NCBI RefSeq assembly: GCF_030398335.1
Contig: NZ_JAOAOP010000016.1
Span: forward strand, 1 to 64,000
Direction of reading: 5' to 3'
From: Aquibium sp. A9E412
Lineage (GTDB): Bacteria; Pseudomonadota; Alphaproteobacteria; Rhizobiales; Rhizobiaceae
DNA length: 64,000 nt
Shown: positions 25,277-62,504 of the stretch, piece by piece
Position numbering within the stretch: position 1 is the first letter of the stretch
Layout: each line of letters starts with the position of its first letter
The notes under the pieces: model-generated
Databases searched by the model: none
What the model was told of the DNA's origin: nothing
Seen by the model: only the letters and a program-made list of their open reading frames with translations
Translations under genes and position numbers: made by a program

Positions 25277-26083
25277 CTACTCGTGCGGCAGGCCGGCGAG
25301 CACGCCCACCATGGCATCGAGCAGAACGCCGCTGCCGGCCGCCAGCGGGCCGTGGCGCGGGTTGCGCGTCGCGTAGCGCGGCGCGTTGCCGTGGCGGTCA
25401 CGCACCGCGCCGCCGGCCTCGCGCAGGATGAGGTCGACGGCGGCGAGGTCCCAGTCGTGCGAATCCGGCTTGATGAAGGTGCCGCCGAGCTCGCCCTTGG
25501 CGACCATGGCGACGCGGTAGGCGAGCGAGGGCACGTAGCCGACCGGCCGCATGCGGGCGCGCAGCGGCTCGGGCAGCGCGCGCAGCATGGTCTTCGGGCC
25601 GCCGAGCGCCGGCGCCTCGGCCGCCGCCGCGACGGCGATCGGCCGGTCGTTCAACGTCACGCCGCCGCCGGCCACCGCGCCGTAGATCTCGCGCCGGGCC
25701 GGACAGTCGATGACGCCGGCGACCGTGCGACCGCCCTCGACGATCGCCACCGAGACGCACCAGGTGTCGCGGCCGTCGAGAAAGGCGCGCGTGCCGTCGA
25801 TCGGGTCAACCACGAAGGTGCGCTCGGCCGACAGCCGGGCCGGCGTGTCGGCCGTCTCCTCCGACAGCCAGCCATGGTCCGGACGGGCGCCGAGCAGCAC
25901 CGCGCGCAGATGCTTGTCGACCGCCAGGTCGGCCTCGCTGACCGGCGAGCGGCCCTCCTTCCACCACACCTTGGGGTCGCGGCGGAAATGGCGCATGGCG
26001 ATCTCGCCGGCCTCGCGGGCGGCGTCGCGAATCAGGTTCAGGTCGTCGTGCGGGCGCAGCCGCGCGGGCTCAGTTACCGGCAA
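25277..26083 (-). CDS. cysQ: 3'(2'),5'-bisphosphate nucleotidase / inositol monophosphatase family
   Basis: Mg-dependent phosphatase of 268 residues. Metal-site motifs are SEETAD, DPIDGTRAF and the C-terminal HDWDLAAVDLIL; the last two define the IMPase/CysQ superfamily. The best guess is recycling of 3'-phosphoadenosine 5'-phosphate, but inositol monophosphate cannot be excluded. The start is a TTG at 26083 with GAGGG upstream, inside the end of pmbA (14-base overlap), so the genes are coupled. No ATG lies near the family N terminus (NLIRDAAREAGEIA). Confidence 0.88.
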   Translation of the reverse strand: MPVTEPARLRPHDDLNLIRDAAREAGEIAMRHFRRDPKVWWKEGRSPVSEADLAVDKHLRAVLLGARPDHGWLSEETADTPARLSAERTFVVDPIDGTRAFLDGRDTWCVSVAIVEGGRTVAGVIDCPARREIYGAVAGGGVTLNDRPIAVAAAAEAPALGGPKTMLRALPEPLRARMRPVGYVPSLAYRVAMVAKGELGGTFIKPDSHDWDLAAVDLILREAGGAVRDRHGNAPRYATRNPRHGPLAAGSGVLLDAMVGVLAGLPHE

Positions 26084-27413
26084 GGGTCATGCCCTCGATG
26101 AGAAGCGTCGGGGCGGCGGTGCCGAAATTGCGGTCGAGGTCGTTTGCCGGCGTCATGTGCAGGAACATGTCCTGCAAATTGGACGCGATCGTGACCTCGG
26201 AGACCGGGTGCGTCAGTTCGCCGTCCTCGATCCAGAAGCCGGCCGCGCCGCGGCTGTACTCGCCGGTCACCATGTTGACGCCCTGGCCGAACACCTCGGT
26301 CACGTAGAAGCCGCGCTTCAGCCCGCCGATCAGCGCCTCCGGCGTCGCCGTGCCGGGCTCGATGGCGAAGTTGGTGGCGGCCGGCGACACCGAGGAGGCG
26401 GCACGCACGCCGCGGCCGTTGGTCTGCAGGCCGAGCTCGCGGGCGACCGCCGCCGACAGAAGCCAGGCGCGCAGGACGCCGTCCTCGACCATGGTGAGCG
26501 GCCGGCCGGCGACGCCCTCGCCGTCGAAGGGGCGCGAGGACGGGCCGCGCCGGCGGTGCGGATCGTCGGTCACCGTGATGCCGGGCGCGGCGATCGGCTG
26601 GTCCATGCGGTCGCGCAGGAAGCTGGTCTTGCGGGCGACGGAGGCACCGTTGATCGCGCCGGCGAGATGGCCGGCGATGCCGCGCGCCACGCGCGGGTCG
26701 CAGACGATGGCGACGCGGCCGGTGTCGGCCTTGCGCGGGTTGAGCCGGCGCACGGCGCGCTCGCCGGCGCGGCGGCCGATGATCTGCGGCGCCTCGAGGT
26801 CGGCGTGGTGCAGCCGCGCGGAGAAATCGTAGTCGCGCTCCATCGCCGTGCCCTGGCCGGCGATCACGCTGACCGAGCGGGCGAAGCGCGTCGAGCGGTA
26901 CTGGCCGAGAAAGCCGTGCGAGGTGGCGAGCACCAGCCCGCCGGCGCCGGCGCTGGCGCCGCTTCCCGACGAATTGGTCACGCCGGGCACCGCCAGCGCG
27001 GCCTCCTCGGCGGCGAGCGCGGCCTCGCGCAGCGCCTCGCTCGACACCTCGGTATCGTCGTGCAGGTCGAGATCGGCGATCTCGGTGGCCAGAAGCCCGG
27101 CGTCGGCGAGGCCCGCATAGGGGTCTTCCGGCGACGCCTTGGCCATGGCGACGGCACGCTCGGCAAGCGCATGGCGGTCGCCCGAGGCCGTCGCCGAGAC
27201 GCTCGCCACGCGGCGCCCGACGAAGACGCGCAGCGCCATGTCGTCGCTCTCGGCCGCCTCGGTGCCCTCGACCTTGCCGAGGCGCACCGACACCGCGGTC
27301 TGCCGCGAGCGCACGATCACCGCGTCGGCGGCGTCGGCGCCGGCGCGGCGGGCAGCCTCCACCAGGCCGGCGACACGGTCGACGAGGGCTTCGCTGTGAG
27401 ACTTTCCGGACAT
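26070..27413 (-). CDS. pmbA: Metalloprotease-like protein PmbA/TldD
   Basis: Member of the TldD/PmbA (TldE) family, subunit-type peptidases involved in maturation of modified peptides and CcdA antitoxin turnover; 447 residues. Conserved blocks include VFVGRRVASVSATASG, NGRGVRAASSVSPAATNF and GEYSRGAAGFWIEDGE near the C terminus. It lacks an obvious HExxxH motif, consistent with the PmbA (TldE) partner rather than TldD. ATG 27413 (MSGKSHSEALVDR) is preferred to the frame up to 27506. It is upstream of cysQ with overlap. Confidence 0.9.
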   Translation of the reverse strand: MSGKSHSEALVDRVAGLVEAARRAGADAADAVIVRSRQTAVSVRLGKVEGTEAAESDDMALRVFVGRRVASVSATASGDRHALAERAVAMAKASPEDPYAGLADAGLLATEIADLDLHDDTEVSSEALREAALAAEEAALAVPGVTNSSGSGASAGAGGLVLATSHGFLGQYRSTRFARSVSVIAGQGTAMERDYDFSARLHHADLEAPQIIGRRAGERAVRRLNPRKADTGRVAIVCDPRVARGIAGHLAGAINGASVARKTSFLRDRMDQPIAAPGITVTDDPHRRRGPSSRPFDGEGVAGRPLTMVEDGVLRAWLLSAAVARELGLQTNGRGVRAASSVSPAATNFAIEPGTATPEALIGGLKRGFYVTEVFGQGVNMVTGEYSRGAAGFWIEDGELTHPVSEVTIASNLQDMFLHMTPANDLDRNFGTAAPTLLIEGMTLAGN

Positions 27414-27602
27414 GCGCTTCGCTTCCTGCCGGCTTCGGTGGCGGCGTTTTCGACGTGGTGGCGACGGCCGGCGCGGCGCGGCGCGCGGCCCGCCCGATCC
27501 CTGCATCTATTGTCGGCGCGCGCCATGTGCAATGGTAGCGGCTGCAGCGGGGTGCGGACGGCGCGCCCCGCGGACGGGCAGAGGAACGGGCACGGACGGT
27601 CG

Positions 27603-29405
27603 ATGGCGGTAGAGGACACGGTCACCTATTACGAGCCGCTGCTGCTGCTTGCCGGCGCCGTGGTGGCGGCGCCGCTGTTCAAGCGCATCGGCCTCGGCAC
27701 CATCCTCGGCTATCTGGCCGCCGGGGTGGCGATCGGACCGGTGGCGCGCCTCATCACCGACGGCCGCGAGCTGCTGCACGTGGCCGAGCTCGGCGTCGTC
27801 TTCCTGCTGTTCATCATCGGCCTCGAGCTGAAGCCGGCGCGGCTGTGGCAGATGCGCGGCGAGATCTTCGGCCTCGGCCTCGGCCAGGTCGTGCTGACCG
27901 GATTCGTGCTCGGGCTGATGGCGCTTTACGGCATGGGGCTGTCGGTGGCCGCGGCGACGATCGTCGGCTTCGGGCTGGCGCTGTCGTCGACCGCCTTCGC
28001 CATGCAGACGCTCGAGGAGGAGGGGGCGCTCAACACGCGCTACGGCCAGACCTCCTTCTCCGTGCTGCTGCTGCAGGACATCGCCATCGCGCCGCTGCTG
28101 CTGCTCGTGCCGCTGCTGGCGCCCGGCTCTGAGGGCGCCGAGACGATCAGCGGCACGCGCTTCGCGCTGGCGCTGGCCAGCGTCGTGGCGCTGGTGGCGG
28201 CCGGCCGCTACCTGCTCAACCCGCTGTTTCGCATCATCGCCAACGCCGGTGCCAAGGAGGCGATGATCGCCGCCGCCCTGCTCGTGGTGCTGGGCTCGGC
28301 GACGCTGCTGCAGATCGCCGGCCTGTCGATGGCGCTCGGCGCCTTCATCGCCGGCGTGATGCTCGCCGAATCCTCCTTCCGGCACGAGCTGGAGGCCAAC
28401 ATCGAGCCCTTCCGCGGCGTGCTGCTCGGCCTGTTCTTCATGGCGGTCGGGCTGTCGCTCGACCTCGGCGTGCTGGCGCAGAACTGGCTGACCATCGTGC
28501 TGGCGGTGCCGGTCCTGATGGTCGTCAAGGCGGCGCTGATCTACGGCCTGTGCCGGCTGTTCGGCAACGGCCACACGGATGCGCTGCGCGTCGCCATGGT
28601 GCTGCCGCAGGGCGGCGAGTTCGGCTTCGTGCTGTTCACCGCCGCCTCCTCGGCGGCGATCTTCCCGGCCGCCACGGCCTCGCTGCTGATCGCCGTCGTC
28701 ACCATCTCGATGGCGCTGACGCCGCTGTCGGTGCGGCTCGGCGAACGGCTGACGCGCGGCGAGGTGAGCGAGCAGATGGAGGAGGATTTCCAGGGCGCGG
28801 GTTCGGACGTGCTGATGATCGGCTTCTCGCGCTTCGGCCAGATCGCCTCGCAGATCCTGCTGGCCGGCGGCACGGAGGTGACGATCATCGACCGCTCGGC
28901 CGAGCGCATCCGGACGGTCGAGAAGTTCGGCTTCCGCATCTATTTCGGCGACGGCCGGCGCAAGGAGGTGCTCGAGGCGGCCGGCATCCGGCGCGCCAAG
29001 ATCGTCGCTGTGTGCACCAACGGGCGCGAGACGACCGACTACATCGTCGACCTGATCCGCAGCGAGTTCCCGCACGTCCGGCTCTACGTGCGCTCCTACG
29101 ACCGGGTGCACACGCTGTCGCTGAAGGCGCGCGGCATCGACTACGAGATCCGCGAGACCTTCGAATCCGGGCTGATGTTCGGGCGGCGCACGCTCGAGGC
29201 GCTCGGCGCCAGCGAAGCCTCGGCGGCCGACATCGCGGAGGACGTGCGCCGGCGCGACGAGGAGCGGCTGGCCATCCAGGCGGTCGAGGGCAGCATCTAT
29301 GCCGGGCGCGACAAGATGCATGTGCGCCCCGTGGCGCCCGAGCCGCTGGTCCGGCCGACGCGCGAATCGCGCCGCCTCGACCAGTCGGAGCCGGCCGCGG
29401 AATAG
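27603..29405 (+). CDS. Monovalent cation:H+ antiporter, KefB/CPA2 type
   Basis: Inner-membrane K+ (or Na+)/H+ antiporter of 600 residues. The first 380 residues hold about twelve hydrophobic spans with the CPA2 segments GLALSSTAFAMQTLEEEG and LGAFIAGVMLAESSF. From about 400 comes a cytosolic RCK/TrkA-N domain (VLMIGFSRFGQIASQILL, then TIIDRSAERI). The glycine-rich loop reads GFSRFG rather than the usual GxGxxG with G at the third position. No KefF-type ancillary gene is adjacent, so glutathione gating is uncertain. It is divergent from pmbA. Confidence 0.93.
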   Translation: MAVEDTVTYYEPLLLLAGAVVAAPLFKRIGLGTILGYLAAGVAIGPVARLITDGRELLHVAELGVVFLLFIIGLELKPARLWQMRGEIFGLGLGQVVLTGFVLGLMALYGMGLSVAAATIVGFGLALSSTAFAMQTLEEEGALNTRYGQTSFSVLLLQDIAIAPLLLLVPLLAPGSEGAETISGTRFALALASVVALVAAGRYLLNPLFRIIANAGAKEAMIAAALLVVLGSATLLQIAGLSMALGAFIAGVMLAESSFRHELEANIEPFRGVLLGLFFMAVGLSLDLGVLAQNWLTIVLAVPVLMVVKAALIYGLCRLFGNGHTDALRVAMVLPQGGEFGFVLFTAASSAAIFPAATASLLIAVVTISMALTPLSVRLGERLTRGEVSEQMEEDFQGAGSDVLMIGFSRFGQIASQILLAGGTEVTIIDRSAERIRTVEKFGFRIYFGDGRRKEVLEAAGIRRAKIVAVCTNGRETTDYIVDLIRSEFPHVRLYVRSYDRVHTLSLKARGIDYEIRETFESGLMFGRRTLEALGASEASAADIAEDVRRRDEERLAIQAVEGSIYAGRDKMHVRPVAPEPLVRPTRESRRLDQSEPAAE

Positions 29406-42065: not shown

Positions 42066-44015
42066 GTGCATCCGGCAATTCAGGCTTGGGTGCACTCGAT
42101 GTTTCGCAGATTCTGGCAGGACAGACGCGGCAACTACATGCTCCTCACGGCGGCAGCGATCGTGCCGATCATGGGCGCTCTGGCCATCGGCATCGACTAT
42201 GCCGAGATGACGCGGCAGCGCCAGGCGACGCTCAACGCGCTCGACGCCGCCGGCATCGCCACCGCGCGCCGGGTGATCGAGGGGGCGAGCGAAGCGGAGC
42301 TGGTCACCTACGCCAACGACTTCTTTCTGGCCAATCTCGGCCCGGTCGACCCGGAGAACGCCACGCTCCAGGTCGTCCTGCCGCAGAACAACACCGGCGG
42401 CGGGACGCTGGAGCTGACCGCCGAGCTCAACTACAAGCCCTACTTCCTGCCCGCCTTCCGCGCCCTGATGAAGCCCGGCTTCGACGCCGGCTCGGCCAAT
42501 GTCGACTTCACCGCCCGCTCGGAGGTGCGGCTGAAGAACACGCTCGAGGTGGCGCTGGTGCTCGACAACTCCGGCTCCATGGACTACCGCGGCTCGGGCT
42601 CGGGCAACAAGCGCATCGACCTGCTCAAGGATGCGGCCAAGCAGCTCGTCGACACCATCGCCGCGCAGGGCGCGCAGATGAAGCAGGTGCCCAAGCCGGT
42701 GCAGTTCGGCCTGGTGCCGTTCGCCGCCTCCGTCAACGTCGGGGCCGACAAGGCGACAGAGAGCTGGATGGACACCAAGGGCGTGTCGCCGATCCATCAC
42801 GAGAACTTCGACTGGACGACGATGACCGGCCAGAAGCGGGTGCAGCTTTCCGGCGGCATGTACGTCAAGAAGGGCGACGACTGGGGCGACGAGGAGAACG
42901 AGATCGTCAGCCGCTTCACGCTGTTCGACGAGCTGACGCGCGTCACCGGCCAGGAGTGGAGCGGCGGCCAGGAGAAGGTGTGCAAGCTGTGGTGGCGCGG
43001 CAGCTGCTACTGGTGGGACTGGGAAGACACCGGCGAGTGGACCTACACCTACGGCAGCTATGCGAGCTGGCAGGGCTGCGTGGAGGCCCGGCCGCACCCC
43101 TATGACAAGACCGACACGCCGCCCAGCGCGGCCACGCCGGCCACACTGTTCGTGCCGATGTTCGCGCCCGACGAGACCGACCTGAAGGACGGCTCCGGCC
43201 GGCGCGCCAACGGCGACTGGTGGCCCGACATGCTGGGCGGCTCGCACAACGACAAGCGCCAGGCCTACATGCCGAAATACTTCGCGCCGGCGCCCGACGG
43301 CACCGCGCCGGCCGGTGCCGGCCAGGGGCCGAACGCGAGCTGCACGACCGAGCCGATCACGCCGCTCAAGGACGTCAGCAAGACGGCCGGCCTCAACGAG
43401 ATCAAGGGGGCGATCGACGCCATGGCGCCGAACGGCGCGACCAACGTGCCGCAGGGCATCGCCTGGGGCTGGCGCGTGGTGTCGGGCGGCGAGCCCTTCA
43501 CCGAGGGCCGGCCGGACAGCGAGAAGGGCAACGACAAGGTGGTGATCGTGCTGACCGACGGCGCCAACACCTACTACACGCCCGGCTCGCTGGGCTACAA
43601 CGACCTGGCCGGCAACAAGTCGACCTATTCGAGCTACGGCTACACCGGCCGCGTCCAGCCGGGCGAGACGGCGACGCGGCTGTTCATGGGCACCGGCAGC
43701 GACGTCGGCAAGTCGGACTTCTCCAACGGCAACTATTCCGACGCGCTGAACGAGCAGATGACGGCGTTGTGCACCAATGCCAAGGACTCCGGCGTCATCA
43801 TGATGACGGTGTCGCTCGACCTGTCGACGAGCGACAACGCGGAGAAGAAGCAGATCGCGGCGCTCAAGGAATGCGCCTCCTACTCGCGCTTCCGCAAGGA
43901 CCCGGACGACCCCTCGAAGCCGGCCAAGCTCTACTGGAACGCCACCGGCTCCGATCTCGCCGACAAGTTCAAGGAGATCGCCGACGAGCTGTCCAACCTG
44001 CGCATCGTCAGCTAG
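42066..44015 (+). CDS. TadG-like pilus/surface protein with VWA domain
   Basis: Surface or envelope protein of 649 residues. The N terminus has the TadE/G-type anchor (RRFWQDRRGNYMLLTAAAIVPIMGALAIGIDYAE). A von Willebrand factor A domain follows, with the metal-site motif LVLDNSGSMDY and the strand VVIVLTDGANTYY. Between them sits an unusual Trp/Tyr-rich segment bounded by cysteines (CKLWWRGSCYWWDWEDTGEW). The TadE/G domain usually goes with a tad pilus cluster, but no other tad gene is nearby. The GTG at 42066 (AAGGGG upstream) or the ATG at 42099 could be the start. The stop codon runs straight into a hairpin repeat. Confidence 0.9.
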   Translation: MHPAIQAWVHSMFRRFWQDRRGNYMLLTAAAIVPIMGALAIGIDYAEMTRQRQATLNALDAAGIATARRVIEGASEAELVTYANDFFLANLGPVDPENATLQVVLPQNNTGGGTLELTAELNYKPYFLPAFRALMKPGFDAGSANVDFTARSEVRLKNTLEVALVLDNSGSMDYRGSGSGNKRIDLLKDAAKQLVDTIAAQGAQMKQVPKPVQFGLVPFAASVNVGADKATESWMDTKGVSPIHHENFDWTTMTGQKRVQLSGGMYVKKGDDWGDEENEIVSRFTLFDELTRVTGQEWSGGQEKVCKLWWRGSCYWWDWEDTGEWTYTYGSYASWQGCVEARPHPYDKTDTPPSAATPATLFVPMFAPDETDLKDGSGRRANGDWWPDMLGGSHNDKRQAYMPKYFAPAPDGTAPAGAGQGPNASCTTEPITPLKDVSKTAGLNEIKGAIDAMAPNGATNVPQGIAWGWRVVSGGEPFTEGRPDSEKGNDKVVIVLTDGANTYYTPGSLGYNDLAGNKSTYSSYGYTGRVQPGETATRLFMGTGSDVGKSDFSNGNYSDALNEQMTALCTNAKDSGVIMMTVSLDLSTSDNAEKKQIAALKECASYSRFRKDPDDPSKPAKLYWNATGSDLADKFKEIADELSNLRIVS

Positions 44016-44228: not shown

Positions 44229-45806
44229 ATGGCGCACAGGACCGACAAGGTGAAGGCACGGCTGCCGCGCGGCCTGGTCGACCGCGGCCCCGACGACATC
44301 CGCGCCGTCGAGGCGATGCTGCGCACCATCGCCGGCGTCTACGAGCGCTACGGCTTCGACCCGGTCGAGACGCCGCTGATCGAGTACACCGAGGCGCTCG
44401 GCAAGTTCCTGCCCGACCAGGACCGGCCGAACGAGGGCGTGTTCTCCTTCCAGGACGACGACGAGCAGTGGCTGTCGCTGCGCTACGACCTGACCGCGCC
44501 GCTGGCGCGCTACGTGGCGGAGAACTTCGAGCGGCTGCCCAAGCCCTACCGCAGCTACCGCACCGGCTGGGTGTTCCGCAACGAGAAGCCGGGACCCGGC
44601 CGCTTCCGCCAGTTCATGCAGTGCGACGCCGACACGGTGGGCACGCCGGGCGTGGCGGCCGACGCCGAGATGGCGATGATGATGGCCGACGTGATGGAGG
44701 CGCTCGGCATCGCCCGCGGCGACTACGTCATCCGCGTCAACAACCGCAAGGTGCTCGACGGCTACATGGCGAAGGCCGGGCTCATTGGCGAGGCAAATGC
44801 AGGCCGGCGCTTACAGGTGCTCCGAGCGATCGACAAGCTAGACCGGCTTGGAGCGGATGCTGTTCGTGAACTGATGGGTCCAGGCCGGCTTGATGAATCG
44901 GGCGATTGGACACCCGGAGCCAACCTATCGGTTGAGCAAATCGAAATCTTCTTCCGCGCCATGCTCTCTGGTTCCGTAACACACTATAGCCCGGCGACAA
45001 CTGAAGGTTATGAGCACGGCCTACGAAGCTTTGACGGTATTCCTCACGTCGCCGACTACGACGGACTTGAAAAGCTGGCCGCCGATTTGGCAACGACCGA
45101 ATCCGGCAGCGAGGGCGCACGTGAATTGCAGGAGATGGCTGCTGTTTTCGATGCATGTGGCTATCGCGACCGCATAGACATCGACCCCTCCGTGGTGCGC
45201 GGCCTGGAATACTACACCGGCCCCGTCTACGAGGCCGAGCTTCTGGCCGAGATCCCCAACGAGGAGGGCCGCATCGTGCGCTTCGGCTCGGTCGGCGGCG
45301 GCGGCCGCTACGACGGGCTGGTCTCGCGCTTCCGCGGCGAGCCGGTGCCGGCGACGGGCTTTTCTATCGGCGTGTCGCGGCTCGCCACCGCGCTCAAGAA
45401 TCTCGGCAAGCTGCCGGCGGCCGACGGCGCCGGCCCGGTGGTCGTTCTGGCCATGGACCGCGATCCGCAGAGCCTCGGCCGCTACCAGCGCATGGTCGGC
45501 GCGCTGCGCGCCGCCGGCATCCGGGCGGAGATGTATCTCGGCGGCGCCGGCATGAAGGCGCAGATGAAGTATGCCGACCGGCGGGCGAGCCCGTGCGTCG
45601 TCATCCAGGGCGGCGACGAGCGCGAGCGCGGCGAGGTGCAGATCAAGGACCTGGTCGAGGGCAAGCGGCTGTCGGCCGAGATCGCCGACAACGTGACCTG
45701 GCGCGCGCAGCGTCCGGCGCAGGTCTCGGTCGCCGAGGACCGGCTGGTCGACACCGTGCGCGACATCCTCGACGCCCAGGCGGCGGACCGCGCGCGGGGC
45801 GCGTGA
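44229..45806 (+). CDS. hisS: Histidyl-tRNA synthetase (mosaic gene)
   Basis: Class II synthetase of 525 residues. Motif 2 region [29 protein letters not shown] and the His-binding block [17 protein letters not shown] are intact, as are [13 protein letters not shown] and GFSIGVSRL. It opens [30 protein letters not shown]. From about residue 185 to 318 the codon use and GC content change abruptly but the frame is kept and the protein still looks like an alphaproteobacterial HisRS. It is upstream of hisZ-hisG, joining histidine charging and synthesis. Confidence 0.95.
44783..45183 (+). other. Lower-GC foreign-like segment inside hisS
   Basis: Hand counts per 60-base line give 52-63% GC for 44821-44880 and 44941-45180, against 70-72% in lines checked just outside (44641-44700 and 45181-45240). 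Codons rare elsewhere appear together: TTA and CTA for Leu, ATA for Ile, GTA, ACA, TCT and TTT. Edges fall in conserved sequence ([12 protein letters not shown] on the left, [13 protein letters not shown] on the right). It encodes the insertion region between motif 2 and the His-binding block. It is best explained by homologous replacement from a lower-GC relative. Confidence 0.8.
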
Positions 45807-45924: not shown

Positions 45925-47058
45925 ATGAGCCCGCGCTACCCCGCCTTCGCGCCGGACATCCTGGCGCATCTTCGCGAGCGCGGCGCGCCGCCGGTCGAGC
46001 TGCCGGTCATCCAGCCGGCCGACCCGTTTCTCGACATGGCCGGCGAGGACCTGCGCCGGCGCGTCTTCCTGACCGAGAGCGAGAGCGGCGAGGCGCTGTG
46101 CCTGCGGCCGGAGTTCACGATTCCCGTGTGCCGCGACCACATCGAAAGCCGCGCCGCCACGCCGCGCCGCTACGGCTATCTCGGCGAGGTGTTCCGGCAG
46201 CGCCGCGCCGGCGGCAACGAGTTCTACCAAGCCGGCATCGAGGATCTCGGCGACGCCGACATTGCGGCCGCGGACGCGCGCTCGCTGGCCGACGCGCACG
46301 GCCTGCTCGAGCGGCTGCTGCCGTCCGCCCGACTCGCGGTGACGCTCGGCGACCAGGCGATGTTCGAGGCGGTGCTGGCCGCGCTCGGCCTGCCGCCCGG
46401 CTGGCAGACCAAGCTGACGCGCGCCTTCGGCTCGCCGGACAAGCTCGCCGACGCGCTGGCCGAGCTCGCCGACCCGCCGGCCGCCGCGCCGCTGCCGCGG
46501 CCGGTGGCGCGGCTGGTGGCCGCCGGCGACGAGGCGGCGCTGACGGCGCATGTCGGCGAGGCGATGGAGGCTGCCGGCCTGTCGCCCAGCGCCGGCCGCA
46601 CGCCGCAGGAGATCGCGCAGCGGCTGATCGAGCGCGCGCAGCTCGCCAGCCTGCGCATCGCCGACGGCGCGCTCGCCGCGCTGCAGACCTATCTTGCCAT
46701 CCGCGCGCCGCTCGACCGGGCGGCCGACGCGCTCGCCGGCTTCGCCGACGAGGCCGGGCTGGTGCTCGACGACGCCATCGCCGCCTTCGCCGGCCGCGCG
46801 GCGGCGATCGCCGGGCACGGCCTGCCGGACGGCGCGATCGCCTTCGACGCCGCCTTCGGCCGGCCGCTCGACTACTACACCGGCTTCGTCTTCGAGATCG
46901 CGCTGCCGGACGGCGCGGACGGCGCGGCCCGGCCGCTCGCCGGCGGCGGCCGCTACGACCGGCTGCTGACGCTGCTCGGCGCGCCGCAGCCGATCCCCGG
47001 CGTCGGCTTCTCGGTCTGGCTCGACCGGGTGGAGCGCCACTGGGAGCGGCCGCGATGA
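45925..47058 (+). CDS. hisZ: ATP phosphoribosyltransferase regulatory subunit
   Basis: HisRS-like protein without synthetase activity that activates the short HisG in the first step of histidine synthesis. The 377-residue product shares class II synthetase blocks with HisS ([65 protein letters not shown]) but lacks the anticodon domain. ATG 45925 ([16 protein letters not shown]) is preferred to the frame opening at 45814. The 118-base gap after hisS contains CCCTGGCCAGGG, a perfect palindrome. It overlaps hisG by ATGA. Confidence 0.95.
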
Positions 47059-47762
47059 GCGTGACGATCGCCCTGCCCTCCAAGGGCCGGCTCAAGGAGG
47101 ACGCGCTGGCCGCGCTCGCCGCGGCCGGCCTCACGGTCGAGGCGCCGCAGGACGCCCGGCGCTACAGCGCCCGCGTCGCCGGCTTCGACGGGCTGGAGGT
47201 TGCCTTCCTGTCGGCCTCCGAGATCGCCCGCGAGCTCGGCCGCGGCGCCGTCGACCTCGGCGTCACCGGCGAGGACCTGGTGCGCGAGACGATCGCCGGC
47301 TGGTCGGACAAGGTCGAGATCGCTGCCCGGCTCGGCTTCGGCCGCGCCGACGTGGTGGTGGCCGTGCCCGACGTGTGGTTCGACGTCGCCACGATGGCCG
47401 ACCTCGACGACGTGGCGGCCGAGTTCCGCCACCGGCACGGCCGGCGGCTCAGGATCGCCACGAAATACTGGCGGCTGACGCAGCAGTTCTTCTCGCAGAA
47501 GCACGGCATCCAGGTCTATCGCATCGTCGAGAGCCTGGGCGCCACCGAGGGCGCGCCGGCGGCCGGCTCGGCCGACGTCATCGTCGACATCACCTCGACC
47601 GGCGCGACGCTCGCCGCCAACCACCTGAAGGTGCTCGACGACGGCGTCATCCTGCGCTCGCAGGCCTGCCTGGTCGCCGCCCGGCAGCCGCGCGCGGAGG
47701 CCGACGCCGCGCTGGTGGCCGAGGTCGCCGGCCGCCTCGCCGGCAACGCGCCGCAAGGCTAG
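47055..47762 (+). CDS. hisG: ATP phosphoribosyltransferase, short form
   Basis: Catalytic subunit of the first, feedback-controlled step of histidine synthesis. At 235 residues it is the short HisG that needs HisZ, and it lacks the C-terminal regulatory domain of long HisG. Motifs are [13 protein letters not shown] at the N terminus, [13 protein letters not shown] and the PRPP loop [21 protein letters not shown]. The ATG overlaps the hisZ stop. Its own TAG stop is the start of a hairpin repeat. Confidence 0.96.
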
Positions 47763-59385: not shown

Positions 59386-60282
59386 TCAGGGCGTGATCAG
59401 CGTGCCGGCGCCGTGCTCGGTGAACAGCTCCAGAAGCACCGCGTGCGCGGTCTTGCCGTTGAGGATGACGACGCCCTGCACGCCGCGCTCGATCGCCTGG
59501 ATGCAGGTCTCGACCTTGGGGATCATGCCGCCGGAGATCGTGCCGTCGGCGATCAGCGCGCGCGCCTCGGCGACCGTCAGCTCGTCGAGCAGCTTGCCCC
59601 CGCGGTCGAGCACGCCCGGCACGTCGGTCAGGAACAGCAGGCGCTGCGCCTCGACCGCGCCGGCGATGGCGCCGGCGAAGGTGTCGGCGTTGATGTTGTA
59701 GGTGTGGCCGTCGCGGCCCGGCGCGACCGGAGCGATGACGGGGATCATCTCGGAATGGGCGAGCAGGTCGAGCAGCGTGCGGTCGACCTCGACCGGCTCG
59801 CCGACGAAGCCGAGATCGAGCACCCGCTCGATGTTGGAATCGGGATCGGTGACGGTCTTGTGCGCCTTTTCGGCGAACACCATGTTGCCGTCCTTGCCGC
59901 ACAGGCCGATGGCCCACTCGCCCTCCGCGTTGATGAGCGCGACGATCTCCTTGTTGATCGAGCCGGCGAGCACCATCTCGACGATCTCGACCGTGCTGCG
60001 GTCGGTGACGCGCAGGCCGCCCTCGAACTTCGATTCGATGCCCATCTTCTTGAGCATGGCCGCGATCTGCGGCCCGCCGCCATGCACGACGATCGGGTTG
60101 ACGCCCGACTGCTTCAGCAGCGCGATGTCCCGCGCGAAGGCCCGGCCGAGCGTCGGATCGCCCATGGCGTGGCCGCCATATTTCACCACTACGGTCTTGT
60201 TCTCGTAGCGCTGCATGTAGGGCAGCGCGGCCGAAAGCAGGCGGGCCTGGTCCTCGGCGTTGGTCGGCGCGGCGTCGGTCAT
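59386..60282 (-). CDS. argB: Acetylglutamate kinase
   Basis: Second step of arginine synthesis. The 298-residue amino acid kinase has [39 protein letters not shown] and [15 protein letters not shown], all diagnostic. The N terminus ([17 protein letters not shown]) carries a helix of the type found in arginine-sensitive kinases, so feedback inhibition is plausible. ATG 60282 is chosen; the frame continues upstream without family character. Confidence 0.97.
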
Positions 60283-60350
60283 GGGGTCCTCGGGCGGATG
60301 GGCGGCAATCCTCATAGTGGCAATCGCCGGCGACCGCAAACGCCGCGCCC

Positions 60351-61847
60351 TCATTCCGGCACGTGAAAGGGCGCGCGCCGCGACGTCCAGCCCGACAGGC
60401 GCTCCATCTGCCCGGCCAGCGACAGCAGCGTCTCCTCGTCGCCGAGCCGGCCGACCGCCTGCACGCCGAGCGGCAGGCCGGCCTCGGTGACGTGCACGGG
60501 AAGCGCGATCGCCGGCTGGCCGGTGACGTTCTGCACCGGCGACCAGTGGGTGAACCACAGGCTCTTGTCCATGAGCTGGCCGAGAAAACGCTCGAAGCGC
60601 AGCAGCGGCGTCAGCCGCAGCCGGTCGAGCATGTCCTCGACGGCGGCGTCGACGCCGCTCGCCTGCATGGCGCCGACGGCGACCGGCGGATGGGCGAGCA
60701 GCGGCACCAGAACCGCGTCGTAGCCGGCGGTCTCGCTGAGGATGCGGCGCGACAGCGCGTTGAGCCGGCCTTGCGCGGCGGTCAGCGCGCCGCCGGAGAC
60801 GAGCTCGCCGAAGCGCGCCATCACGCGGGTGGCGCGCTCGAGCTCGCCGAGCACGCTGCGGCCGAGCCGCGCGGCCTCGAGCCGCATGGCGCCGGCGGTC
60901 GCGGCGGCGACGAGGCGGGCGAAATCGGCCATGAAGTCGCGGCCGACGAAGGCCAGGTCGACCTCCTCGACCGCGTGGCCGCCCGCGCGGGCGAGATCGG
61001 CGGCGCTGTCGAGCGCCTGCATGGTCTCGGCCGAGACCGGCAGGCCGAGCGGCGAGGTGCGGCTGACGCCGATGCGCAGCCGGCCGGGCTCGCGCGCGGC
61101 GGCCGCGGCGAAGCTCTCGCGCGGCGGCCGCGCGACATAGGGCGTCAGCGCGTCGGGCGGCGAGACCAGGTCGAGCAGCGCGGCGCAGTCGCGCACCGAG
61201 CGGGTGACGGCGTGCTGCACGGTGAGGCCGAACCAGGCCTCCGATTCGAGCGGCGTCAGCGGTACGCGGCCGCGCGAGGGCTTGAGGCCGACGAGGCCGG
61301 TGCAGGCGGCCGGCACGCGGATCGAGCCGCCGCCGTCGGAGGCGTGCGCGACCGGCACCACGCCGGCCGCCACCAGCGCGGCCGCGCCGCCCGACGAGCC
61401 GCCGGTCGTGTGGCCGGTGTTCCAGGGATTGCGGGTGGCGCCGAAGGCGCGCGATTCGGTGACCAGGCGCAGGCCGGCCTCCGGCGTGGTGCTGGTGGCG
61501 ATCGGCACCAGCCCGGCGGCGCGGTAGCGCGCCGTCAGCACCGAATCGAAATCGGGCACGAAGGGCGGCACGCGGCTGCCCGAATGGGTCGGCACGCCGG
61601 CGACCGCCAGGCCGAGATCCTTGAGCGCGGTCGGTACCCCTGCGAAGGGCAGCGCACGGTCGAGCGCGGCGGCCTGCCGGCGCGCCTGGTCGTAGAGCGG
61701 CTCGGCGACGGCGTTGATCTCGCCATTGGTGCGCTCGGCGCGGCCGATGGCGGCCTCGACCAGCTCGAGCGGCGTCACCTCGCCGCGGTTGACCAGCCGT
61801 GCCAGGCCGGTCGCGTCCTCCTGCCAGAGCAGCCGTTCCACGCTCAT
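60351..61847 (-). CDS. Amidase (amidase signature family)
   Basis: Hydrolase of 498 residues with the Ser-cisSer-Lys triad: Lys in VPTALKDLG, cis-Ser in [16 protein letters not shown] and the nucleophile Ser in [23 protein letters not shown]. It therefore cleaves amide bonds; the substrate is unknown. GatA is unlikely because gatB/gatC are absent and the C-terminal half differs ([23 protein letters not shown]). ATG 61847 begins [18 protein letters not shown]. It is divergent from the ECF sigma gene. Confidence 0.9.
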
Positions 61848-61964
61848 CCGCCTCTCCCTCGGCGCGAGGCTAGCCGGCCGGCGGCGGGCTGGCAACGTGC
61901 GCGGCATGCCGAAACGGACATTCTCCCGCGTTGCAAAACCGCGCGGATCCAGTAGGTTGGCGCC

Positions 61965-62504
61965 ATGTCGCCGGAGGAGATCACGAAGCTCATCGTCCGC
62001 GTCTCGATGAAGGATCGGGCCGCCTTCGATCTGCTTTATCGGCGCACCAGCGCGAAACTCTTCGGCGTGTGCCTGCGTATCTTGAACGACCGCGGCGAGG
62101 CCGAGGACGCGTTGCAGGAGGTTTACGCGAAGATCTGGACCAAGGCCGACCGCTTCGCGGTGTCGGAGCTGAGCCCGATCTCCTGGCTTGTCGCCGTCGC
62201 CCGCAACCATTCGATCGACCGCATCCGCGCCAAGCGCGTCAAGACGGCCGACCTCGACCAGGCGGTGGAGACGGCCGACCCGCGACCCGGACCGGAGGCG
62301 GAGGCGGAATCCTCGAGCGTGCGTGCGCAGATCGACCGCTGTCTCGGCGAGCTCGAAACCGACCGTGCGTCGGCGGTGCGCGGCGCCTATCTGAACGGCG
62401 ACAGCTACGCCGAACTGGCCGAGCGCTTCGAGGTGCCGCTCAACACGATGCGAACCTGGCTGCGACGCAGCCTGATCAAACTGAGGGAATGCCTGGAACG
62501 ATGA
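61965..62504 (+). CDS. ECF-type RNA polymerase sigma factor (SigK-like)
   Basis: Extracytoplasmic-function sigma factor of 179 residues. Region 2 reads FDLLYRRTSAKLFGVCLRILNDRGEAEDALQEVYAKIW with the -10 binding segment SWLVAVARNHSIDRIRAKR. Region 4 is YLNGDSYAELAERFEVPLNTMRTWLRRSLIKLRECL. The stop overlaps the start of the anti-sigma gene (ATGA), the usual arrangement for an RskA-type pair. Upstream, GAAAC at 61911 and CGTT at 61929 are only 13 bases apart, so autoregulation is not clear from sequence. Confidence 0.94.
   Translation: MSPEEITKLIVRVSMKDRAAFDLLYRRTSAKLFGVCLRILNDRGEAEDALQEVYAKIWTKADRFAVSELSPISWLVAVARNHSIDRIRAKRVKTADLDQAVETADPRPGPEAEAESSSVRAQIDRCLGELETDRASAVRGAYLNGDSYAELAERFEVPLNTMRTWLRRSLIKLRECLER

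Follow-up and report, generated by a model that had tools for sequence, protein, structure and literature searches.

In Aquibium sp. A9E412, the histidyl-tRNA synthetase gene (hisS) carries a hypervariable module at the tip of the insertion domain of its product (HisRS), enclosed by conserved flanks. On comparison with relatives we consider it probable that this module is exchangeable throughout the order of this genome (rhizobia and their relatives), that it has been recombined between lineages, and that it is kept by selection for rare types. The gene lies in a window of 64,000 nucleotides (contig NZ_JAOAOP010000016.1), by which we mean the whole stretch of DNA that was analysed. Table 1 lists the features of the locus.

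Table 1. Features of the hisS locus of Aquibium sp. A9E412, with positions as in the window.
Feature	Positions	Strand	Basis or remarks
hisS, histidyl-tRNA synthetase, 525 aa	44229..45806, stop included	+	ORF, NCBIfam, Pfam, structure
N-terminal conserved flank, codons 1-185	44229..44783	+	GC3 0.99
Low-GC3 tract, codons 186-316	44784..45176	+	Maximum-likelihood segmentation; GC3 0.55; edges ± about 3-4 codons
Front part of tract, codons 186-235	44784..44933	+	Protein mostly family-conserved; DNA AT-rich, GC3 0.52
Hypervariable core, codons 236-316	44934..45176	+	81 aa here; 41-149 aa among 199 genes
Tip, residues 249-274	44973..45050	+	Between predicted helices 235-247 and 279-286; pLDDT about 30
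C-terminal conserved flank, codons 317-525	45177..45803	+	
hisZ, HisRS-like regulatory subunit, control gene	45925..47058	+	NF008951, 560.1 bits, cut-off 364
hisG, second control gene	47055..47762	+	TIGR00070, 182.9 bits, cut-off 75.75

The hisS gene and its low-GC3 tract

The hisS gene is one uninterrupted reading frame of 525 codons followed by hisZ and then hisG, and the product matched TIGR00442 (NCBIfam) with 372.9 bits against a cut-off of 286.75. The Pfam domains tRNA-synt_His (PF13393) and HGTP_anticodon (PF03129) were both present, giving the catalytic and anticodon-binding domains of a long-form histidyl-tRNA synthetase. At E ≤ 0.001 the gene was the only match to its own protein in the genome. 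Structures of HisRS were also found by sequence, and the top fold comparison was with 3net (Z 29.4, rmsd 10.9, 399 residues aligned). The further copies expected of a silent-cassette system, as in antigenic variation, were also looked for: no recognisable second copy of hisS or of the middle segment was present in the genome, a search that a stored, unrelated type lacking flanks would escape. An intein or homing element was rejected, as no such Pfam family was found in HisRS at E ≤ 0.001, and a Pfam search of eight cores returned just two sub-threshold matches (Tudor_3 and YqgF).

An AlphaFold2 model (mean pLDDT 72, 32 sequences in the alignment) predicted the core to be a helical hairpin, with a third helix at residues 291-309 besides the two that enclose the tip. 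The low pLDDT of the tip is weak evidence of disorder, because other and conserved stretches of the model (residues 1-20, 49-88, 118-126, and 365-368) also fell below 50.

The first-pass annotation had described a sharply bounded, low-GC segment with foreign codons in this gene, its frame intact and both edges in conserved protein blocks. This description was confirmed in position and content. GC3 was 0.989 in codons 1-184, 0.563 in codons 185-319, and 0.951 in codons 320-525. A two-edge maximum-likelihood segmentation delimited the tract given in Table 1, with GC3 of 0.55 inside versus 0.97 in the flanks, 2-lnL edge intervals of codons 183-189 (left) and 312-319 (right), and a likelihood ratio of 128, compared to at most 23 in 20 shuffled controls. 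In the family conservation profile, conserved blocks flank the left edge on both sides and stand just to the right of the right edge.

The dip was also extreme for the region. In a GC3 scan by 80-codon windows, which covered 44 genes from a rough calling of the 64-kb stretch, the lowest value in hisS (0.512) was the minimum of all 13,327 (median 0.95). Three other called genes had an 80-codon GC3 window below 0.70. In the first (25710-29405) the low window lies near codon 121, far upstream of the first Pfam match; the domains are a Na/H exchanger (residues 650-1008) and TrkA_N (residues 1035-1146), and the frame extends some 600 codons upstream of them. The ORF was probably drawn too long, a fusion being less likely, and since its domains begin only at residue 650 the dip falls in a probably non-coding upstream part. 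The other two, minus-strand ORFs at 59386-60558 and 60351-62210, had GC3 of 0.55-0.58 in their first 80 codons, with minima at the first listed codons; these may be starts placed too far upstream or genuine low-GC ends.

Conserved flanks and unrelated cores among relatives

A total of 220 loci were collected from one genome per species and none were dropped, yielding 199 distinct hisS coding sequences including that of Aquibium. Three sets (30, 30, and 80 loci) were the best matches to the window, which itself was in the first two, and 80 further loci were chosen by hand, mostly one per genus. Because loci were picked partly by similarity to the window, core frequencies are not population estimates. 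The first 109 relatives, which include some genes twice from two sources, were 73-85% identical to the Aquibium protein in the N flank and 64-83% in the C flank, versus 27-43% in the middle segment, whose length varied from 95 to 185 residues.

Among the 199 genes, conservation collapsed at residues 236-310 of the Aquibium protein. Mean GC3 of the other sequences was 0.48-0.67 over these residues and 0.58-0.95, mostly near 0.8, in the flank steps. Family means of GC3 alone cannot separate a tract of DNA from effects of the residues, because the conserved flank steps 51-55, 326-330, and 446-450 were as low as the core. In the Aquibium gene the contrast is clear: codons 186-235 encode mostly conserved protein at a GC3 of 0.52, compared to 0.97 in the flanks. 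A class-level sample from outside the order comprised 66 genomes, of which 65 had a HisRS match. The ten closest of these (L251-L260) had cores of 58-62 residues whose GC3 differed from that of the flanks by no more than about 0.1. Judged from these ten, hypervariability seems limited to the order of this genome or at least more pronounced there.

Single-linkage clustering of 227 sequences at 45% identity yielded 95 core types: a canonical group with 96 members, 16 smaller types, and 78 singletons. At 50% identity, 88 clusters were obtained among 199 sequences. There were 333 pairs whose flanks had a DNA identity of 0.90 or higher; these and the following pair counts are not independent, as pairs share members. 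A non-canonical core was present in 160 of them, and all 160 had core protein identity below 0.45 (40/40 pairs of two non-canonical cores and 120/120 mixed pairs). Among the 173 canonical pairs, core identity was above 0.75 in 143, below 0.45 in 14, and between these limits in 16. With flanks of at least 0.92 (82 pairs), 34 cores were below 0.45, 42 above 0.75, and six between. This two-valued divergence partly reflects the existence of two core classes. The closest flanks gave the clearest cases: L112 and L122, from one genus (genomes G041 and G200), had 96.0% identical flanks and a core identity of 30%; the corresponding values were 94.3% and 29% for L018/L186, and 94.1% and 18% for L024/L175. 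None of the 40 non-canonical pairs shared a type. Conservation by descent is thus seen only within the canonical group and in some less close pairs, e.g. L128/L146 (flanks 0.872, core 0.88). The left edge of divergence varied from about residue 171 to 240 (steps of 10 residues). The right edge was constant: each of the 13 plotted pairs with different cores had it in the step of residues 311-320, and the fourteenth plotted pair has similar cores.

The cores did not follow the flanks. Between pairs of sequences, the protein distance in the N flank was correlated with that in the C flank (Spearman 0.72), compared to 0.10 for N flank and core (-0.01 for non-canonical, 0.33 for canonical cores). 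Placed on a FastTree flank tree, the 17 recurring core types required 44 changes (minimum 16). With the canonical group removed 33 were required (minimum 15), versus a mean of 39.7 and a lowest value of 36 in 100 shuffles; a number below the shuffles and above the minimum indicates some joint inheritance and much mixing. Type 2 (core 65-66 residues) has seven members. Five belong to genera known by code, which cannot be matched to names; the other two are a Mesorhizobium and an unplaced member of the Rhizobiaceae. Types 4, 14, and 15 each cross family boundaries. L249 and L132, from two families of the order, have the same 96-residue core type (FACFEGRT in common; SLPLGV and SMPLGV).

Sharp edges, together with a segment whose history runs against that of both flanks, make hisS a mosaic gene at the family level, where the sequence patterns leave in-frame replacement of the insertion-domain segment well supported. 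For the Aquibium allele itself, we infer replacement from the edges in its composition and from its relatives. The claim of the first-pass annotation that this segment had been replaced in frame thus stands mainly for the family. It had also named, as evidence against a mosaic, the same dip in all close relatives combined with congruent trees. That combination was not found: the dip turned out to be common, though not universal, among relatives, so that it is not peculiar to this genome, and the histories of the segments are incongruent.

The alternative that survives best, which we nevertheless regard as unlikely, is a surface loop under little constraint that evolves very rapidly in place, with AT bias, by mutation and indels and with no transfer. 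The conservation minimum at the core, the lack of any non-canonical type kept between close pairs, and the raised synonymous divergence of the core are all in its favor. For types 2-16 (types 0 and 1 excepted), 50 of the 51 same-type pairs had less third-position identity at identical residues in the core than in the flanks, a comparison in which high flank GC3 inflates the flank values. In 14 hand-picked same-type pairs, core synonymous divergence was near that of the flanks in seven (six canonical pairs and L128/L146), raised about 2-7 times in five (L071/L084, L234/L235, L009/L038, L081/L085, and L062/L063), and saturated in two (L034/L065 and L114/L130). The canonical group showed the same tendency: for the 145 pairs whose flanks reached 0.90 and whose cores reached 0.6 in identity, the ratio of core pS to flank pS had a median of 1.49 (≤1.3 in 48 pairs, ≥1.9 in 25). 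Such a raised rate could result from allele exchange within a type, weaker codon bias, or local mutation.

Against change in place, pN was lower than pS in all 145 of these pairs (median pN/pS 0.19, highest 0.42), which shows that substitution within the canonical type is under purifying, not positive, selection; as no non-canonical pair met the limits, within-type constraint applies to the canonical group only. Flanks that are 96% identical leave little time for complete loss of similarity along with changes in length, and the conserved front part of the Aquibium tract is AT-rich too. Above all, the same types recur in distant genera and families. L073 and L150, from different genera, have 75% identical cores with flanks 75% identical in DNA, whereas L073 and L085 have unrelated cores (25%) with flanks of 93.9%, a pattern that fast change in place does not give.

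Control genes, tRNA-His, and the question of a donor

Control genes were compared in 62 loci from named genomes (61 with hisZ and 61 with hisG), using pairs with flanks of at least 0.90. In the 68 core-different pairs, the mean of the lowest 60-codon window was 0.21 for hisS, 0.77 for hisZ, and 0.78 for hisG; hisS was the lowest of the three in every pair, and no divergence break like that of hisS was found in hisZ or hisG. The other 83 pairs gave 0.77, 0.79, and 0.79, respectively, with hisS lowest in 26. A comparison of whole loci in 11 pairs is coarse for the neighbours, since downstream minima span intergenic gaps and upstream values are means only.

The tRNA-His gene of Aquibium, read directly, carries A73 and U72 but does not encode G-1, and thus belongs to the G-1-independent histidine system of alphaproteobacteria. 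These are the same features as in the Caulobacter-type system, where A73, U72, and the anticodon are the identity elements, independent of G-1 (PMC9976931). The subject there is tRNA identity and the loop of motif 2, whereas the variable module is located elsewhere in HisRS. The Aquibium tRNA-His was letter-identical in 9 of 198 other genomes, and a degenerate pattern had a match in 193 of 199. Among the matches listed, every tRNA-His ended in GTACCA and some stem positions varied. Three genome pairs (G024/G124, G103/G175, and G038/G133) combined identical tRNA-His with unrelated cores. Altered tRNA recognition was rejected as the main driver on account of such individual pairs, and the earlier proposal that exchange of this region alters it found no support.

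Module exchange might instead reflect co-evolution between HisRS and an internal partner, e.g. a regulator or a member of a complex, and not the action of an antagonist. Constraint within the canonical type, meaning that sequence matters, is compatible with this. We rate it slightly below change in place, as neither hisZ nor hisG co-varies with the core and identical tRNA-His occurs beside unrelated cores; the other neighbours were covered by the coarse comparison only.

In hosts with flank GC3 above 0.75, mean core GC3 was 0.74 for canonical (n = 72) and 0.59 for other cores (n = 116), the canonical cores thus also being somewhat below their flanks (0.86). Non-canonical cores had lower GC3 than their own flanks in 128 of 131 cases, 19 of these by less than 0.1; exceptions in the order sample included L225, L233, and L242 (core GC3 0.84-0.90). 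Even in low-GC hosts (flank GC3 below 0.65) with a non-canonical core, core GC3 was the lower in 6/6. A single low-GC donor is therefore unlikely, and low GC follows the class of the module.

Searches for a donor agreed with this. In 394 genomes of the family, the best-scoring match to the middle segment had 44% identity, and among matches that covered most of the segment identity reached 54% at most; higher identities were limited to its first 55-60 residues. For the tip, comparison with the 217 of 226 other tips that were long enough gave scores no better than those of shuffled tips. Twenty plasmid records matched the middle segment, all below 60% identity (six annotated as histidine--tRNA ligase, two as hypothetical protein, and 12 without annotation under the match). 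Phage records yielded no match, and in viral contigs five stretches fitted a pattern, none of them a relative. A low-GC donor was thus sought without result in family genomes, plasmids, phages, and viral contigs. As a side observation, the replicons NZ_CP040819.1, NZ_CP023549.1, NZ_CP015293.1, and NZ_CP031947.1, filed as plasmids and from Rhodobacteraceae-like genera, carry an annotated hisS.

These results leave very little room for the original proposal, in which this genome received the segment in a single replacement from an alphaproteobacterium of lower GC and its recognition of tRNA-His was altered. The sharp boundaries and the foreign codons would fit, as would the finding that the nearest genomes of the front part of the tract differ from those of the flanks. 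However, hypervariable low-GC segments occupy the same place throughout the family and the order, no near relative emerged as donor, GC3 is low in low-GC hosts too, and identical tRNA-His accompanies unrelated cores. The least probable explanation, barely credible in our view, is that a need for slow translation or an overlapping element maintains the AT-rich codons: low GC3 at the same place in many relatives would agree with it, but it leaves the replacement of protein between sister genomes unexplained, and the drop in GC3 is slight in the 19 non-canonical cores mentioned above.

Possible selection on the module

We propose that recombination in hisS between conserved blocks would swap the module in frame, as suggested by the mosaic pattern with its varying left and constant right edges. 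The module types would be old; some of them recur in distant genera and families, and sister genomes often bear unrelated modules. Selection for rare types would then keep the replacements, most likely through a putative agent in contact with this part of the HisRS surface. A toxin, a phage protein, or an antibiotic directed at the synthetase would be examples; it is turnover by itself that suggests such selection. The phage and viral searches gave no relative, and no partner or toxin was identified either. Divergent alleles may escape whatever raises GC3 in the host, e.g. GC-biased conversion, which we offer as a conjecture for the low GC.

The picture resembles that of a recognition polymorphism: the scaffold is conserved, sister genomes carry unrelated modules, types recur across genera and families, and the module shows no tie to the cognate tRNA. 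We put forward, tentatively and with less confidence than module exchange itself, that an essential synthetase here carries an order-wide polymorphism of the recognition type, with dozens of old HisRS module types under rare-type selection by a putative agent. In HsdS of type I restriction systems, target-recognition domains are exchanged. HsdS and HisRS have in common a conserved scaffold, unrelated variable modules, and recombination in conserved flanks; they differ in that the carrier here is an essential synthetase and the ligand is putative. Mosaic penicillin-binding protein genes show interspecies replacement within an essential gene under selection by a known drug. Part of an essential gene would likewise be replaced between species in hisS, with very many types and a putative agent in place of the known drug. 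Within the rhizobial group a tRNA synthetase is the target of agrocin 84, an antibiotic from a bacterium of that group directed against the LeuRS of its rival in Agrobacterium (PMC5059758); this differs in concerning LeuRS and not HisRS, and the available part of the source mentions no module exchange. Our literature search, in which subscription papers were largely out of reach, found no title describing hypervariable exchange in HisRS, which does not show its absence from print.

If the module behaves as a recognition allele, it would point to an undiscovered toxin, phage factor, or antibiotic acting against HisRS in rhizobia. It would also warn against the use of whole hisS as a phylogenetic marker in rhizobia, tRNA synthetases being conserved genes that are used in phylogenies. 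The hisS core further offers an opportunity to ask why hypervariable DNA that has been replaced should be rich in AT, even where the host itself is low in GC.

The gene directly upstream of hisS (42066-44015) has a product in which a von Willebrand A domain is accompanied by a Tad match below threshold, which by sequence suggests a surface (Flp-pilus-like) function beside the his genes.
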